In this document: positions 9,383 through 26,043 of the stretch, piece after piece | Position numbering within the stretch: the stretch's first letter is position 1 | Layout of the letters: the number at the start of each line of letters is the position of its first letter | NCBI RefSeq assembly: GCF_011806405.1 | Contig: NZ_JAATOW010000001.1 | Location: forward strand, 1-64,000 | Direction of reading: 5' to 3' | Source of the DNA: Pseudooceanicola sp. HF7 | Lineage (GTDB): Bacteria > Pseudomonadota > Alphaproteobacteria > Rhodobacterales > Rhodobacteraceae | DNA length: 64,000 bases | Position numbers and translations under genes: made by a program | Notes under the pieces: generated by a model | Databases searched by the model: none | The model's input: only the letters and a program-made list of their open reading frames with translations | Told to the model about the DNA's origin: nothing

Positions 9383-9964
9383 ATGCCGAAAGCGATCAGG
9401 CCGGAAGTGACCAGCGAAATGGACAGCGACACCGAGAGCGACATGGATCTGCTGGCCCGCGCCGCGCGGGGCGATGCGGAGGCCATGCGCGGGCTTTACG
9501 AGCGCCACCACGATGCCCTTTTCGCCTTCATCCGGATGCGCTGCGATGACCCTGCGCTGGCGGGGGACGTGGTGCATGACGCGATGCTGGATGTCTGGCG
9601 CACGGCGGGAAAGTTCGCGGGCAAAAGCTCTGTCAGGACCTGGATCTTCACCATCGCGCGCAACAAGCTGGTGGACCGGATCCGCCGGTCCTCTCAGCTG
9701 TCCTTCACGGACGAGGTGCCGGAGACCGTGGACGACAGCCCTGATGCGACGCAGGTGATCGCGGCCTCTCAGGATGCGGCGCGGCTGCGCGCCTGCCTCG
9801 ACAAGCTGAAGAAGGTGCAGCTGGCGGTGATCCGGCTGGCCTTCTACGACGAGCTTCCCTACGAGCAGATCGCCGAGATTGAATCCGTCCCCGTCGGCAC
9901 GGTCAAGACGCGGATCTTCCACGCCAAGAAGGCGCTGATGCATTGCCTTGGCCAGTCTGCCTGA
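9383..9964 (+). CDS. RNA polymerase ECF-family sigma factor
   Basis: A 193-residue group IV sigma factor. Region 2 covers about 28-95 (LYERHHDALFAFIRMRCDD, then VVHDAMLDVWRTA and SSVRTWIFTIARNKLVDRIR), and region 4 covers about 130-185 (LKKVQLAVIRLAFYDELPYEQIAEI, then VPVGTVKTRIFHAKKAL, the recognition helix). It directs RNA polymerase to a small regulon released by a membrane signal. The start at 9383 has GGGG four bases upstream; ATG codons at 9419 and 9443 are alternatives. Its likely anti-sigma factor is the convergent gene 23 bases downstream. Confidence 0.9.
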   Translation: MPKAIRPEVTSEMDSDTESDMDLLARAARGDAEAMRGLYERHHDALFAFIRMRCDDPALAGDVVHDAMLDVWRTAGKFAGKSSVRTWIFTIARNKLVDRIRRSSQLSFTDEVPETVDDSPDATQVIAASQDAARLRACLDKLKKVQLAVIRLAFYDELPYEQIAEIESVPVGTVKTRIFHAKKALMHCLGQSA

Positions 9965-9987: not shown

Positions 9988-10575
9988 TCAGGGCCGGGTG
10001 ACGGCGTTCACCAGCGCATCGCGGCTGGCAAGCAGCGCCTCTGCGCTATCGCGGGCCCCGGCATCCGTGAAGGATAGCGTGTAAAGACCCAAGGCAGAGG
10101 GGCCCTCGATGATCTGCGCGCCGGTCTCCGCCAGAAGGGCCGTGACCTGGGACAGGGGGGCATCGGGGGCGAAGGCCACGCGCAGGGCAGGGCCGGCGGG
10201 GGTCACGCTGGCCGGGCGGAAGCCATCGCCGGGCGACAGGCGCGGCACCACGGCGAGCTGCCAGCAGGTGATCGCCACGGCGGCGATGGCTGCGACCTTC
10301 AGCAAGGGCAGGATTCGGTTGGTATTGGCGGGCGTGCCGCGCTGCTCCTGCGCGATGGAGGCCGAAAGGCGCTGCCAGCCCTCGGCACGCGCGCCCTCCG
10401 GCACCGGCGTCGCGCCCAGCTGGTCGGCGGCGGCGCGCAGGCTGGCAACTTCGGCCTGAAGGGAGGGGGATTGCGCCAGCTCTTCCTCGAAGGCCGCGCG
10501 GTCTTCGGGGGCCAGGCGATCCTGCATGTAGGCCAGCAGCCTGTCGTCCCGGTCGCTGTCGGTGTCCATGGTCAT
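9988..10575 (-). CDS. Membrane-anchored anti-sigma factor with prodomain-like C-terminal domain
   Basis: A 195-residue single-pass membrane protein. The N-terminal cytoplasmic segment (DDRLLAYMQDRLAPEDRAAF) matches the sigma-binding helices of many anti-sigma factors but lacks a zinc-binding HxxxCxxC. One helix spans about 88-110. The periplasmic part ends in a compact domain (131-195: LRVAFAPDAPLSQVTALLAE, then GAQIIEGPSALGLYTLSF) resembling the small alpha/beta prodomain or inhibitor fold of subtilases. The ATG at 10575 is preferred over 10608 because GGAGG precedes it by eight bases. It converges on the ECF sigma gene and diverges from a subtilase gene. Function is inferred from architecture and location. 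Confidence 0.75.
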   Translation of the reverse strand: MTMDTDSDRDDRLLAYMQDRLAPEDRAAFEEELAQSPSLQAEVASLRAAADQLGATPVPEGARAEGWQRLSASIAQEQRGTPANTNRILPLLKVAAIAAVAITCWQLAVVPRLSPGDGFRPASVTPAGPALRVAFAPDAPLSQVTALLAETGAQIIEGPSALGLYTLSFTDAGARDSAEALLASRDALVNAVTRP

Positions 10576-10673
10576 TCCCTTTCCTCCGGGTCCGTTTGTT
10601 CCAGACATTGGCCCGGAAAAGAAGCACCTATCCGCCGCTGCCCGCGTGACGGCGGGGCGGGATCATGGTCTTT

Positions 10674-10699
10674 GTCGTGCGGGGGGCGCTGCGGGTTCA
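10674..10699 (-). promoter_or_regulatory. Candidate ECF-type promoter for the anti-sigma gene
   Basis: On the minus strand the sequence reads TGAACC (10699-10694), a 16-base spacer, then CGAC (10677-10674). The same elements and spacer occur facing the other way at 10757-10782. The predicted start leaves a leader of roughly 90 bases before the anti-sigma ATG. The match to the neighbouring ECF sigma factor is inferred from the mirrored arrangement. Confidence 0.5.
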
Positions 10700-10756
10700 A
10701 AAATGGGGCCCAAGGGGCGCAGGGTCCGCGCCTGTGGTCTTTTCGCGCCCCGATTT

Positions 10757-10782
10757 TGAACCGATCCCGAGGACGGAGCGAC
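10757..10782 (+). promoter_or_regulatory. Candidate ECF-type promoter for the subtilase gene
   Basis: TGAACC (10757-10762), a 16-base spacer and CGAC (10779-10782) mirror the minus-strand promoter at 10674-10699; both have a T-rich stretch just before TGAACC. Transcription would start at about 10788-10791, on or next to the subtilase ATG, which implies a leaderless or nearly leaderless message. The flanks (10694-10709 and 10747-10762) form an imperfect 16-base inverted repeat. Confidence 0.5.
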
Positions 10783-10790
10783 GAAGTGAC

Positions 10791-11957
10791 ATGAAACACA
10801 GATCCGCATATCGCGCGCTGTTCCCGCTCTGCCTGGCCGCGCTGGCGCTGGGGGGATGCGCGGGCGACAGCTTGCAGGTGCCGCCGCCCGCGCAGGTCGC
10901 GGCAGATGCGGCAGAGGTGGTCGACCCGCGAGAGATCGTCGCGCTGGTCCCGGACCGTGCCGCCGCCGCCCGGCTTCTGTCCGGCGCCAGGGCCGAGGGG
11001 TTCACCCTGCGCGAACAGACCGCCCTGGCCGGGCTGGGGCTTGAGATGCTGCGCCTTGAGATCCCGGGGGCGCTGGGCGGGCCCGGGGCCATCGCGGCGC
11101 TGGAACGGATCGAGCCCCTGGCGGTGGCCGGGGTGAACCATGCCTATCGCCCGGCGGCCTCTCACGCGCTGGAGTACGCGGATGCGCTGATCGGCTGGCC
11201 GGCTGTGCCCTGTCGTGCGCTGGGGCCGATCGGGATGATCGACACCGGGGTGGATGCGGGCCTGCCGGAGCTGTCGGCTGCCGTGATCCACAGCGCGGGG
11301 TTCGCGCGCGGCGCCCCGGCGGGCCGCCTGCATGGATCCGAGGTGGCGAGCCTGCTGGCCGATCCCCGCCGCCTGAGTGGTGTCACGCTTTACGCGGCTT
11401 CGGTCGTGGGGATGTCGGCGCGGGGGGAGCAGGAGGCCGGGGTGGACAGCCTGCTTGAGGCGCTCAGCTGGCTGGCGGGGCAGGGCGTGCGGCTGGTGAA
11501 CATCAGCCTGGCCGGGCCCTACAACAAGCTGCTGGATCGCGGCATCGACCGGGCAGAGGCCCATGGCATGACGATCGTCGCCGCTGTCGGCAATGACGGG
11601 GCCGGGGCACCGCCGCGCTACCCGGCGGCGCTGGAGAACGTGATCGGGGTGACGGCGGTGGATGCGGATCGCGCGATCTACCGCGATGCGGTGCAGGGGC
11701 GGCAGGTGGATGTGGCCGCGCCGGGTGTGGACGTGCTGCTGAAGCTGGACGGGCGTATGGTCTTTGCCACCGGCACCTCGATCGCCGCGCCCTTCGTCAC
11801 GGCGCGCATCGCCTCGGACCCTGGGCTTTACGATGCCCCGGCCGCGCGGGTGCGCGCCGGGCTGCGGGGGCTGAGCGATGACCTGGGCGCGCCTGGCCCC
11901 GACCCGGTTTTCGGGGCGGGGCTTGTGAAGGCGCCGCCCCGGTGCGCTGCGCCCTGA
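10791..11957 (+). CDS. S8-family (subtilisin-like) serine peptidase, predicted lipoprotein
   Basis: A 388-residue protein with a lipoprotein signal peptide; the lipobox is LALGGC with C23 as the lipidated residue. Residues 45-122 form a prodomain-like alpha/beta segment (EIVALVPDRAAAARLLSGAR onward). The catalytic domain follows with D151 (IDTGVD), H181 (LHGSEVASL), the oxyanion asparagine N269 (VGNDGAG) and S330 (GTSIAAPF), so the triad is complete. It is smaller and more divergent than secreted subtilisins. The ATG at 10791 is chosen because it places the signal peptide correctly; the upstream in-frame extension crosses the promoter. Divergence from the anti-sigma gene suggests a role in envelope signalling (inference). 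Confidence 0.85.
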   Translation: MKHRSAYRALFPLCLAALALGGCAGDSLQVPPPAQVAADAAEVVDPREIVALVPDRAAAARLLSGARAEGFTLREQTALAGLGLEMLRLEIPGALGGPGAIAALERIEPLAVAGVNHAYRPAASHALEYADALIGWPAVPCRALGPIGMIDTGVDAGLPELSAAVIHSAGFARGAPAGRLHGSEVASLLADPRRLSGVTLYAASVVGMSARGEQEAGVDSLLEALSWLAGQGVRLVNISLAGPYNKLLDRGIDRAEAHGMTIVAAVGNDGAGAPPRYPAALENVIGVTAVDADRAIYRDAVQGRQVDVAAPGVDVLLKLDGRMVFATGTSIAAPFVTARIASDPGLYDAPAARVRAGLRGLSDDLGAPGPDPVFGAGLVKAPPRCAAP

Positions 11958-24999: not shown

Positions 25000-26043
25000 T
25001 TGGCCCTGAGATACCCGATGCCCGATCACCCGACACCGCGCGAAGACGTGGCGGCCGTGCAGCGCATGCTGATCGGCCTGGGCTATCGCGGCCTGACCCA
25101 GCCGGAAAGCAAGGCCCAGGCCTCGGTCGCGCAGCCGATGGTCTTTCGCCTGCGCGATGACGGGATCTACGGCCCGGTGACCGAAAGCGCGGTGGAGGCC
25201 TTTCAGGAGGACGAGGGGATCCTGACCGATGGCGTGGTCGGCTCTGTCACCATGGGCTTCCTGGAAGAGGCCTGGGCCCGGCGCGCCAATGAACTGAGCT
25301 CGCCCGCCGCCGGTGGCTTCCTTGTGGAAGACAGCCGCGCCGTGATGGGACAGCAGGAGCGGCTGCGGCTGGAGCGGGTGGCGACGAACACCCCCGAACG
25401 CGTCGCCAAGATGACCAAGCGCGAAGAGGAATATGCCGGCTACCCGCATTTCAGCCTGCGCGCGGATGCCGCCGAAGCCTGGTGCCGGGTGCGCGATATC
25501 GTCAATGATCACGGGGGGATACTGACGTCTTCCGGGGGGATCCGGGGGCTGTCCACGCGGGTGTCGCCGGGGCGCAGCGCGACCTCCATGCATTACGTGG
25601 GGCGGGCTGTCGATCTGCAGATCTATTCCGGCATGGTCGATCCGGAGAATGATCCGCTTGTCATCACTGGCCCCGATGCGGAGCGTTTCTGGACCGTTTG
25701 GGTGCGGGTGAAATACAAGAAGGACCTGGGCCAGGATCTTGAGCTGACGGGTGTGTCCACGGACCGCGTGCGGGACGGGTCGCTCAGCACGAGCGGTCGG
25801 TTCATCAATCTGACCGCGCTATTCGCGGAACATGGATTTGAACGCATCCGCTGCCGCAAGAGCTTTCTGAAAGGCGGTATGCGGATTGGTGCGGAGTTCT
25901 GGCATTTCCAATACGAAAAGGGGTTGGTTCCCGGAGTCAGCACCTTCGGCGCGGAATTGAAACGGCTCTACCCGGTATCGGCCTTGGAAAAGACGCCGCC
26001 CTGGAGCTATCGCGATTGGACGTTCGGCATAAACTGGAATTGA
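25000..26043 (+). CDS. Peptidoglycan-binding domain plus M15-like (VanY-type) zinc peptidase, no signal peptide
   Basis: A 347-residue protein. Residues 12-90 resemble a PG_binding_1 domain (VAAVQRMLIGLGYRGL, DGIYGPVTESAVEAFQ). The C-terminal part has the M15 metallopeptidase pattern S196-x-H198-xx-G201-x-A-x-D205 (SMHYVGRAVD) and E299-F-W-H302, giving zinc ligands H198, D205, H302 and the catalytic E299. Such enzymes cut the peptide part of murein (D,D- or L,D-). No signal peptide is present, as in phage endolysins that need a separate release route. The TTG start has AGGAGAG at the right distance; an ATG at 25018 is the alternative. Confidence 0.72.
   Translation: MALRYPMPDHPTPREDVAAVQRMLIGLGYRGLTQPESKAQASVAQPMVFRLRDDGIYGPVTESAVEAFQEDEGILTDGVVGSVTMGFLEEAWARRANELSSPAAGGFLVEDSRAVMGQQERLRLERVATNTPERVAKMTKREEEYAGYPHFSLRADAAEAWCRVRDIVNDHGGILTSSGGIRGLSTRVSPGRSATSMHYVGRAVDLQIYSGMVDPENDPLVITGPDAERFWTVWVRVKYKKDLGQDLELTGVSTDRVRDGSLSTSGRFINLTALFAEHGFERIRCRKSFLKGGMRIGAEFWHFQYEKGLVPGVSTFGAELKRLYPVSALEKTPPWSYRDWTFGINWN

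Follow-up and report, generated by a model that had tools for sequence, protein, structure and literature searches.

Proteolysis of membrane anti-sigma factors is a main route by which bacteria sense the state of their envelope, and the site-1 protease and its trigger are often not known. In the SREBP pathway of animals, the site-1 protease is an S8 enzyme. The caspase-like protease Csx29 of type III-E CRISPR is reportedly connected with both an ECF sigma factor and a substrate that resembles an anti-sigma factor, in a system said to be RNA-guided and cytoplasmic; we know of no prodomain-like domain in it. The stand-alone inhibitors of MEROPS family I9, which include the yeast proteinase B inhibitor, are known as soluble single domains. 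ORF2 of Aeromonas sobria is, to our knowledge, neither an anti-sigma factor nor linked to a membrane or a sigma factor. In excerpts from PMC10202637, the site-1 proteases mentioned are DegS and PrsW, and the terms 'subtilisin' and 'S8 family' are absent from the main text of that paper. In group ECF54, genes for a subtilase and a CHAT (caspase-like) protein lie beside the ECF sigma factor gene (excerpts of PMC8999054). The word 'subtilase' is absent from PMC7406223 and PMC8103513, and the searched term occurs only in the reference list of PMC4183432. Among the matches listed for open PubMed Central text on anti-sigma factors with subtilase, prodomain, S8, I9 or caspase, the module considered here is undescribed, and so is an S8 enzyme acting as site-1 protease for a bacterial anti-sigma factor. 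The principal papers on ECF reclassification may already list an ECF group that has such a neighbourhood.

In a number of proteobacteria, the membrane protein that silences a sigma factor is predicted to end in a prodomain-like domain and is encoded beside a subtilisin-type protease, which suggests that the protease helps to decide when the switch is released. For the locus described here, we favour, with slightly less than even confidence, the reading that three neighbouring genes form a signalling module, in which the periplasmic domain of the anti-sigma factor would dock on a dedicated periplasmic protease that controls release of the sigma factor. The likely protease, the part that it possibly touches and a common promoter pattern are all visible in the sequence, and the pathway is therefore directly testable. 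The window, that is, the whole stretch of 64,000 nucleotides from Pseudooceanicola sp. HF7 that was analysed, holds the following features:

9383..9964, plus strand: ECF sigma factor (PF04542, 59.3 bits, and PF08281, 51.5 bits, both above cut-off; TIGR02937, 97.9 bits, above cut-off)
9988..10608, minus strand: probable membrane anti-sigma factor, stop codon included (open reading frame), convergent with the sigma gene
10246..10314, minus strand: probable transmembrane segment of the anti-sigma factor, ILPLLKVAAIAAVAITCWQLAVV (read from the sequence)
9997..10188, minus strand: predicted prodomain-like C-terminal domain of the anti-sigma factor, strand 1 to strand 4, with the conserved GPSALGLY hairpin (AlphaFold2 model, Foldseek, PF22148 in homologues, conserved columns)
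10791..11957, plus strand: S8 subtilase, probable lipoprotein of 388 aa, stop codon included (PF00082; lipobox)
10932..11135, plus strand: predicted own prodomain of the subtilase, strand 1 to strand 4 (AlphaFold2 model; Foldseek)
11229..11813, plus strand: S8 catalytic domain (PF00082 stretch)
11241-11243, 11331-11333 and 11778-11780, plus strand: catalytic Asp, His and Ser, respectively (kept among aligned relatives)
10674..10699, minus strand: ECF-type promoter pattern TGAACC-N16-CGAC toward the anti-sigma gene (exact match)
10757..10782, plus strand: ECF-type promoter pattern TGAACC-N16-CGAC toward the subtilase gene (exact match; 8 bases before the ATG)

The anti-sigma and subtilase reading frames were found where the initial annotation had placed them, and the two genes are divergent. 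The anti-sigma factor matches the NCBIfam anti-sigma family NF052375 with an E of 7.7e-13 and 48.9 bits, under the cut-off of 100, and one of the anti-sigma relatives scanned singly (L110) matches zf-HC2 above cut-off. For the subtilase, a start at 10791 is the most likely and the alternative at 10665 is disfavoured. A lipobox, LALGGC, was read by eye, the PF00082 match reaches 78.1 bits against a cut-off of 21.8, and the catalytic triad is kept in 155 of 156 aligned subtilases, the remaining one being gapped there. Among domain-bearing loci, a simple lipobox-like pattern precedes the S8 domain in 22 of the 27 with an opposed anti-sigma gene versus seven of the 86 others, so that lipid anchoring of the protease seems to go mainly with the gene arrangement of the window. 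The genome contains two S8 genes, the window's subtilase being one of them.

In an AlphaFold2 model built from a 42-row alignment of natural sequences (mean pLDDT 88.2), the C-terminal 82 residues of the anti-sigma factor are predicted to fold as β-α-β-β-α-β (strands 17-22, 41-44, 51-55 and 76-80; helices 28-38 and 59-71). The AlphaFold2 model of the subtilase (mean pLDDT 90.9; 47 rows, 364 residues modelled) has the same order in its N-terminal region (strands 24-29, 48-55, 60-66 and 88-91; helices 32-44 and 73-83), followed by the catalytic domain. The initial annotation had proposed from the letters alone that both regions have one and the same order of elements, and this stands for the models, although its list omitted one strand. 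It had also located PD at helix 1 and ALGLY or GLGL at a strand; indeed, PD directly precedes helix 1 in both models, while ALGLY in the anti-sigma domain and GLGL in the subtilase lead into strand 3.

Comparison of the models with the PDB by Foldseek, part of the check that had been proposed, agrees with prodomain-like folds on both sides. The first row for the anti-sigma domain is the S8 protease EpiP (prob 1.00, E 0.022, the matched part of the chain not being shown), and the first 50 rows include more EpiP chains, the isolated subtilisin prosegments 1spb_P and 3cnq_P, pro-subtilisin E, the inhibitor POIA1 (1itp) and 3wqb_B, which by its length is the ORF2 chaperone of the serine protease. 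ACT domains and further folds of the ferredoxin-like kind appear in the same rows, and all 1300 matches have an E above 0.001. For the subtilase, the top row is unautoprocessed pro-subtilisin E over 376 columns (3whi, 373-376 columns overall), with fervidolysin (1r6v, 425 columns) in row 8, the matched ranges again not being displayed. The two models are linked through these shared structural relatives rather than by direct superposition, and a common prodomain-like fold is supported as a prediction. The strongest conserved feature of the anti-sigma domain is the GP of its GPSALGLY hairpin, invariant in the 34- and 42-row alignments but not in the wider set of 47. By eye, it is absent from the equivalent place in the aligned prodomains of the subtilases themselves, and one may speculate that it could be a contact or a cut site.

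Evidence of sequence kinship comes from the homologues. PF22148, the fervidolysin-type prodomain family, matches 17 of 42 homologues of the anti-sigma domain (best E 1.9e-6, with a threshold of E 10) and a wider set of 47 yields 12 matches (best E 1.5e-6); the two sets partly overlap and at least two loci are repeated. The next-best Pfam family is matched by two sequences in each set. When 20 relatives were scanned singly, L120 (28.6 bits) and L214 (27.5 bits) exceeded the PF22148 cut-off of 21 bits, six remained under it (L101 17.1, L104 16.4, L110 16.3, L125 15.6, L226 15.1 and L218 13.6 bits), and the other 12, including three with C14 neighbours, gave no match to this family. The PF22148 matches in the homologues are not due to chance, and kinship of the anti-sigma domain family with subtilase prodomains is well supported at the level of sequence.

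Kinship of the domain with the prodomain of this particular subtilase is suggestive and weakly supported. The window's own anti-sigma C-terminal domain matches no Pfam family, and the Pfam scan gave no PF22148 match in the window's subtilase; among 47 subtilases, PF22148 matches one (E 0.013). BLASTP of the window's anti-sigma factor against its subtilase gave nothing meaningful (E 0.57), and a profile search of PDB sequences with the anti-sigma domain alignment returned four chance-level matches only. A first profile comparison of the domain with the subtilase was out of register (P 0.027) and was rejected. With 122 anti-sigma domains and 153 subtilase N-domains, the profiles align weakly but in register, the aligned part comprising both helices and the hairpin (P 0.0028, probability 11%), and two of 300 column-shuffled controls reach the score. 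When the subtilase alignment was divided into 14 segments for this comparison, scores of 18.3 to 18.9 came from the first three, each of which takes in the whole prodomain or roughly half of it (the third over 23 columns only), and the other 11 score 14.6 or less. The earlier proposal of a prodomain- or I9-like pattern is thus borne out by the predicted fold and by PF22148 in homologues, but not by a Pfam match of the window's own domain, whose direct kinship is weak.

The claim that the protease is encoded next door proved to hold well beyond this locus, the S8 gene beside such anti-sigma factors being strongly conserved. Sigma, anti-sigma and S8 genes occur together in 33 of 36 family loci with an anti-sigma match, and the remaining three are by reading not true members. 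The 36 loci were taken from 38 family matches besides the window, without a second match in G239, with six stops inside, and a second gene piece in G243. Three loci were dropped from the alignments by eye, L066 and L068 because their frames are spurious and L067 because its anti-sigma factor is of another kind; L047, whose N-terminal part is missing, was omitted from alignment A2, and L064 from the subtilase alignment A1. A search with the domain only, in 385 class and 398 phylum genomes, led to 48 places (18 and 38 rows, from which the window, genomes already covered and second matches within loci were left out). One of these, L183, is an EPSP synthase and was removed. An S8 gene was found in 42 of the 47 domain-bearing places, a C14 caspase-like gene in three and neither in two (L172 and L229), within the stretch examined. 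The 47 places are not 47 independent events, because matches fall in few genera (11 of 277 for the class and 21 of 213 for the phylum).

The distribution of the module is patchy. Of the 295 family genomes, 36 gave a match; the class set gave matches in 17 out of 385 genomes and the phylum set in 35 out of 398, the window's genome being counted in each, and as only the best first-look candidates were scored, the resulting counts of absence are upper bounds. The one genome of the same genus that was searched gave no match, and a genome scan with the single anti-sigma protein as query found no relative. Gene orders vary: sigma and anti-sigma genes may be convergent, all may lie in one operon, or the S8 gene may be upstream. 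In L223 (4168-5022, minus), L227 (1220-2968, minus) and L238 (4877-7231, plus), the gene near the domain-bearing anti-sigma factor exceeds the Pfam cut-off for Peptidase_C14 and has a signal peptide by eye, and no S8 gene is found. With such neighbours, it seems that the presence of a protease partner is more important than the ability to inhibit S8 enzymes. Two domain-bearing anti-sigma-like genes lie close together in L227 (4481-5990, minus) and in L229 (3432-5252). In seven loci (L078, L080, L083, L087, L088, L090 and L091), by their titles from Erythrobacter, Porphyrobacter, Sphingopyxis, Hyphomonadaceae, Parvularculaceae and Caulobacterales, an outer-membrane barrel-like gene separates the anti-sigma and S8 genes; of two of them tested, that of L088 is over the Alginate_exp cut-off and that of L083 just under it.

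A search started from the subtilase alignment A1 places the domain in a wider setting. Among the best 80 of 457 subtilase relatives, 41 have a domain-bearing anti-sigma factor, 25 adjoin another anti-sigma type without the domain, and 14 have no anti-sigma match in the stretch examined, three of these with a sigma match. Going by record titles, the 41 belong to Alpha- and Gammaproteobacteria, and Beta- and Deltaproteobacteria occur only among the rest of these best 80. Linkage of S8 and ECF genes does not need the domain, as the 25 show. The second type (L092, L103, L121 and 22 others) carries a C-terminal CR...CR two-cysteine pattern, is divergent from the related S8 gene in 16 of 25 cases, and gives no match to the domain profile in its periplasmic part. 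A quick tree was built from 149 catalytic domains (110 of the domain type, 25 of the other). On it, the two anti-sigma types need four changes, compared with a mean of 23.2 in shuffled controls, none of 500 being as low; the type of anti-sigma partner therefore follows the subtilase lineage.

TGAACC-N16-CGAC has three exact matches in the 64-kb window versus 0.12 expected; the third (25779-25804, minus strand) was taken as chance, since it is embedded in long open frames and no good gene start follows it. If the promoter at 10757-10782 is used, the transcript would have almost no leader, because the -10-like CGAC ends 8 bases before the subtilase ATG. Relatives were surveyed in 114 loci with all three genes, with spacings of 15-17 and CG[AT]C allowed, in locus sets that overlap and with totals that include marked repeats. 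A site near the anti-sigma start was found in 27 of the 31 loci in which the anti-sigma gene opposes the sigma gene (23 of 27 without four marked repeats), and the reversed control pattern has zero occurrences in these 31. Near the protease start, sites occur in 11 of 29 opposed loci with the protease on the sigma strand, within a loose window. Among the 83 loci whose anti-sigma gene shares the strand of the sigma gene, 12 have a site close to the sigma start, also within a loose window, and the control pattern has 10 occurrences in total. The window's own genome has 31 exact matches versus seven for the reversed control; of the 28 outside the window, 20 were read by eye, most lie inside long frames and only one looked promoter-like. 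In that genome, the same pattern (G000:C48:122219-122244, L265) precedes the gene for a secreted Lipoprotein_15 protein (E 2.6e-30), which may be another target of the sigma factor, and in some relatives it also precedes other exported protein genes, among them RTX calcium-binding protein genes adjoining the module (L075:4832 and L091:5073). From these sequences, we infer that the sigma factor reads a TGAACC-N16-CGAC promoter.

Some of this could be expected if the subtilase were a mere output of the sigma factor that is kept nearby, with the domain sensing something else, such as a ligand or misfolded protein, and its fold being an ancient scaffold of the ferredoxin-like type that does not touch the protease. 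The same ECF-type pattern before the anti-sigma and subtilase genes is what an output would show, similar sites precede the RTX genes of L075 and L091 and the Lipoprotein_15 gene, and C14 replaces S8 in three places. The mirror-tree comparison shows no special link either: given the sigma factor, the partial correlation with the catalytic domain is 0.16 for the C-terminal domain and 0.24 for the cytoplasmic part of the anti-sigma factor, and it does not discriminate as evidence for a link of domain and protease. We nevertheless consider this account somewhat unlikely, for if the two proteins made no contact, it would be difficult to account for a chance match to a prodomain family that adjoins an S8 protease gene in 42 of 47 places.

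That the domain is strictly a membrane-bound I9-type inhibitor of the secreted subtilase, the protease rather than the sigma factor being mainly regulated, agrees with the Foldseek rows for 1spb_P, 3cnq_P, POIA1 and 3wqb_B, but we hold it to be improbable. In 122 sequences, the tail after strand 4 has a median of three residues (range 1-18), with four or fewer in 87 and ten or more in 14, and it lacks the N-H-x-Y end that is typical of the subtilases' own prodomains (Asn in 121, His in 102 and Tyr in 133 of 156). As the domain usually ends about three residues past its last strand, insertion of the tail into the active site is uncertain, and docking may leave the cleft incompletely filled. C14 neighbours in three places and the subtilase's own prodomain, a region filled with residues in 34 of 34 aligned subtilases, also speak against a strict inhibitor. 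Least probable of all is a convergent coincidence, in which two small α/β domains look alike and that of the anti-sigma factor is no true prodomain. The lack of a Pfam match for the window's domain, a best Foldseek E of 0.022 with none at or below 0.001, and the chance-level PDB profile matches would fit such a coincidence; PF22148 scores over cut-off in L120 and L214, and weak ones in many more homologues, do not.

The signalling module that we tentatively favour is supported by the fold and family match of the domain, linkage in several gene orders, the intact triad, two S8 genes in the genome, C14 protease neighbours, the promoter pattern common to the anti-sigma and subtilase genes and an M50 gene. 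Points against it are the weak direct sequence kinship of the window's domains, the short tail in most homologues, domain-less anti-sigma factors beside 25 of 80 S8 genes, three C14-neighboured domains without PF22148, a mirror-tree that does not single out the domain, and L172 and L229 without a protease; the predicted ferredoxin-like fold is moreover a common one, with ACT domains in the same Foldseek rows. Gene linkage, catalytic residues, predicted folds and promoter-like pairs are there to be observed. For the binding, the cleavage, the direction of control, the signal and the use of the promoters, we infer the following course. The anti-sigma factor would hold the ECF sigma factor at the inner membrane, and its periplasmic prodomain-like domain would dock in trans on the S8 protease from the adjoining gene, both proteins being kept quiet in the docked state. 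A signal from the envelope or from secretion would free or activate the protease, which, as a dedicated site-1 protease, would cut the periplasmic part of the anti-sigma factor. A general site-2 protease of the M50/RseP type, for which the genome of Pseudooceanicola sp. HF7 has a gene (E 1.5e-65), would then free the sigma factor, and transcription of the anti-sigma and subtilase genes from their common promoter pattern would provide feedback.

More doubtful, yet conceivable, is the broader idea that the sensor end of an anti-sigma factor derives from a recruited subtilase prodomain, which binds its own secreted protease in trans. If true, occupancy or activity of the protease would set gene expression through the anti-sigma factor, and with a caspase-like partner possibly swapped in, this would amount to a general protease-to-sigma switch in Proteobacteria.

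Among known systems, the fervidolysin-type prodomain (PF22148) and the subtilisin prosegment resemble the anti-sigma domain in the predicted β-α-β-β-α-β order, the sequence match in homologues and the near-constant partnership with S8 enzymes. Unlike the fervidolysin-type prodomain, which is on the same chain as its protease, the anti-sigma domain is part of a separate membrane protein whose gene is on the other strand from the S8 gene, and, unlike a subtilisin prosegment, its chain mostly stops just after strand 4. I9 stand-alone inhibitors such as POIA1 likewise have a prodomain-like domain made apart from the protease, whereas the tail of the anti-sigma domain is short. The Aeromonas sobria serine protease and ORF2 (3wqb), a Foldseek match, provide another case of a subtilase-type protease with a separate small partner. 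ECF54 sigma factors are controlled without an anti-sigma factor (excerpts of PMC8999054), whereas the module described here has one. The RseA-DegS-RseP and RsiW-PrsW-RasP cascades are similar to the proposed pathway in having a membrane anti-sigma factor and a site-1 cut, as proposed here, followed by a site-2 protease (excerpts of PMC10202637).
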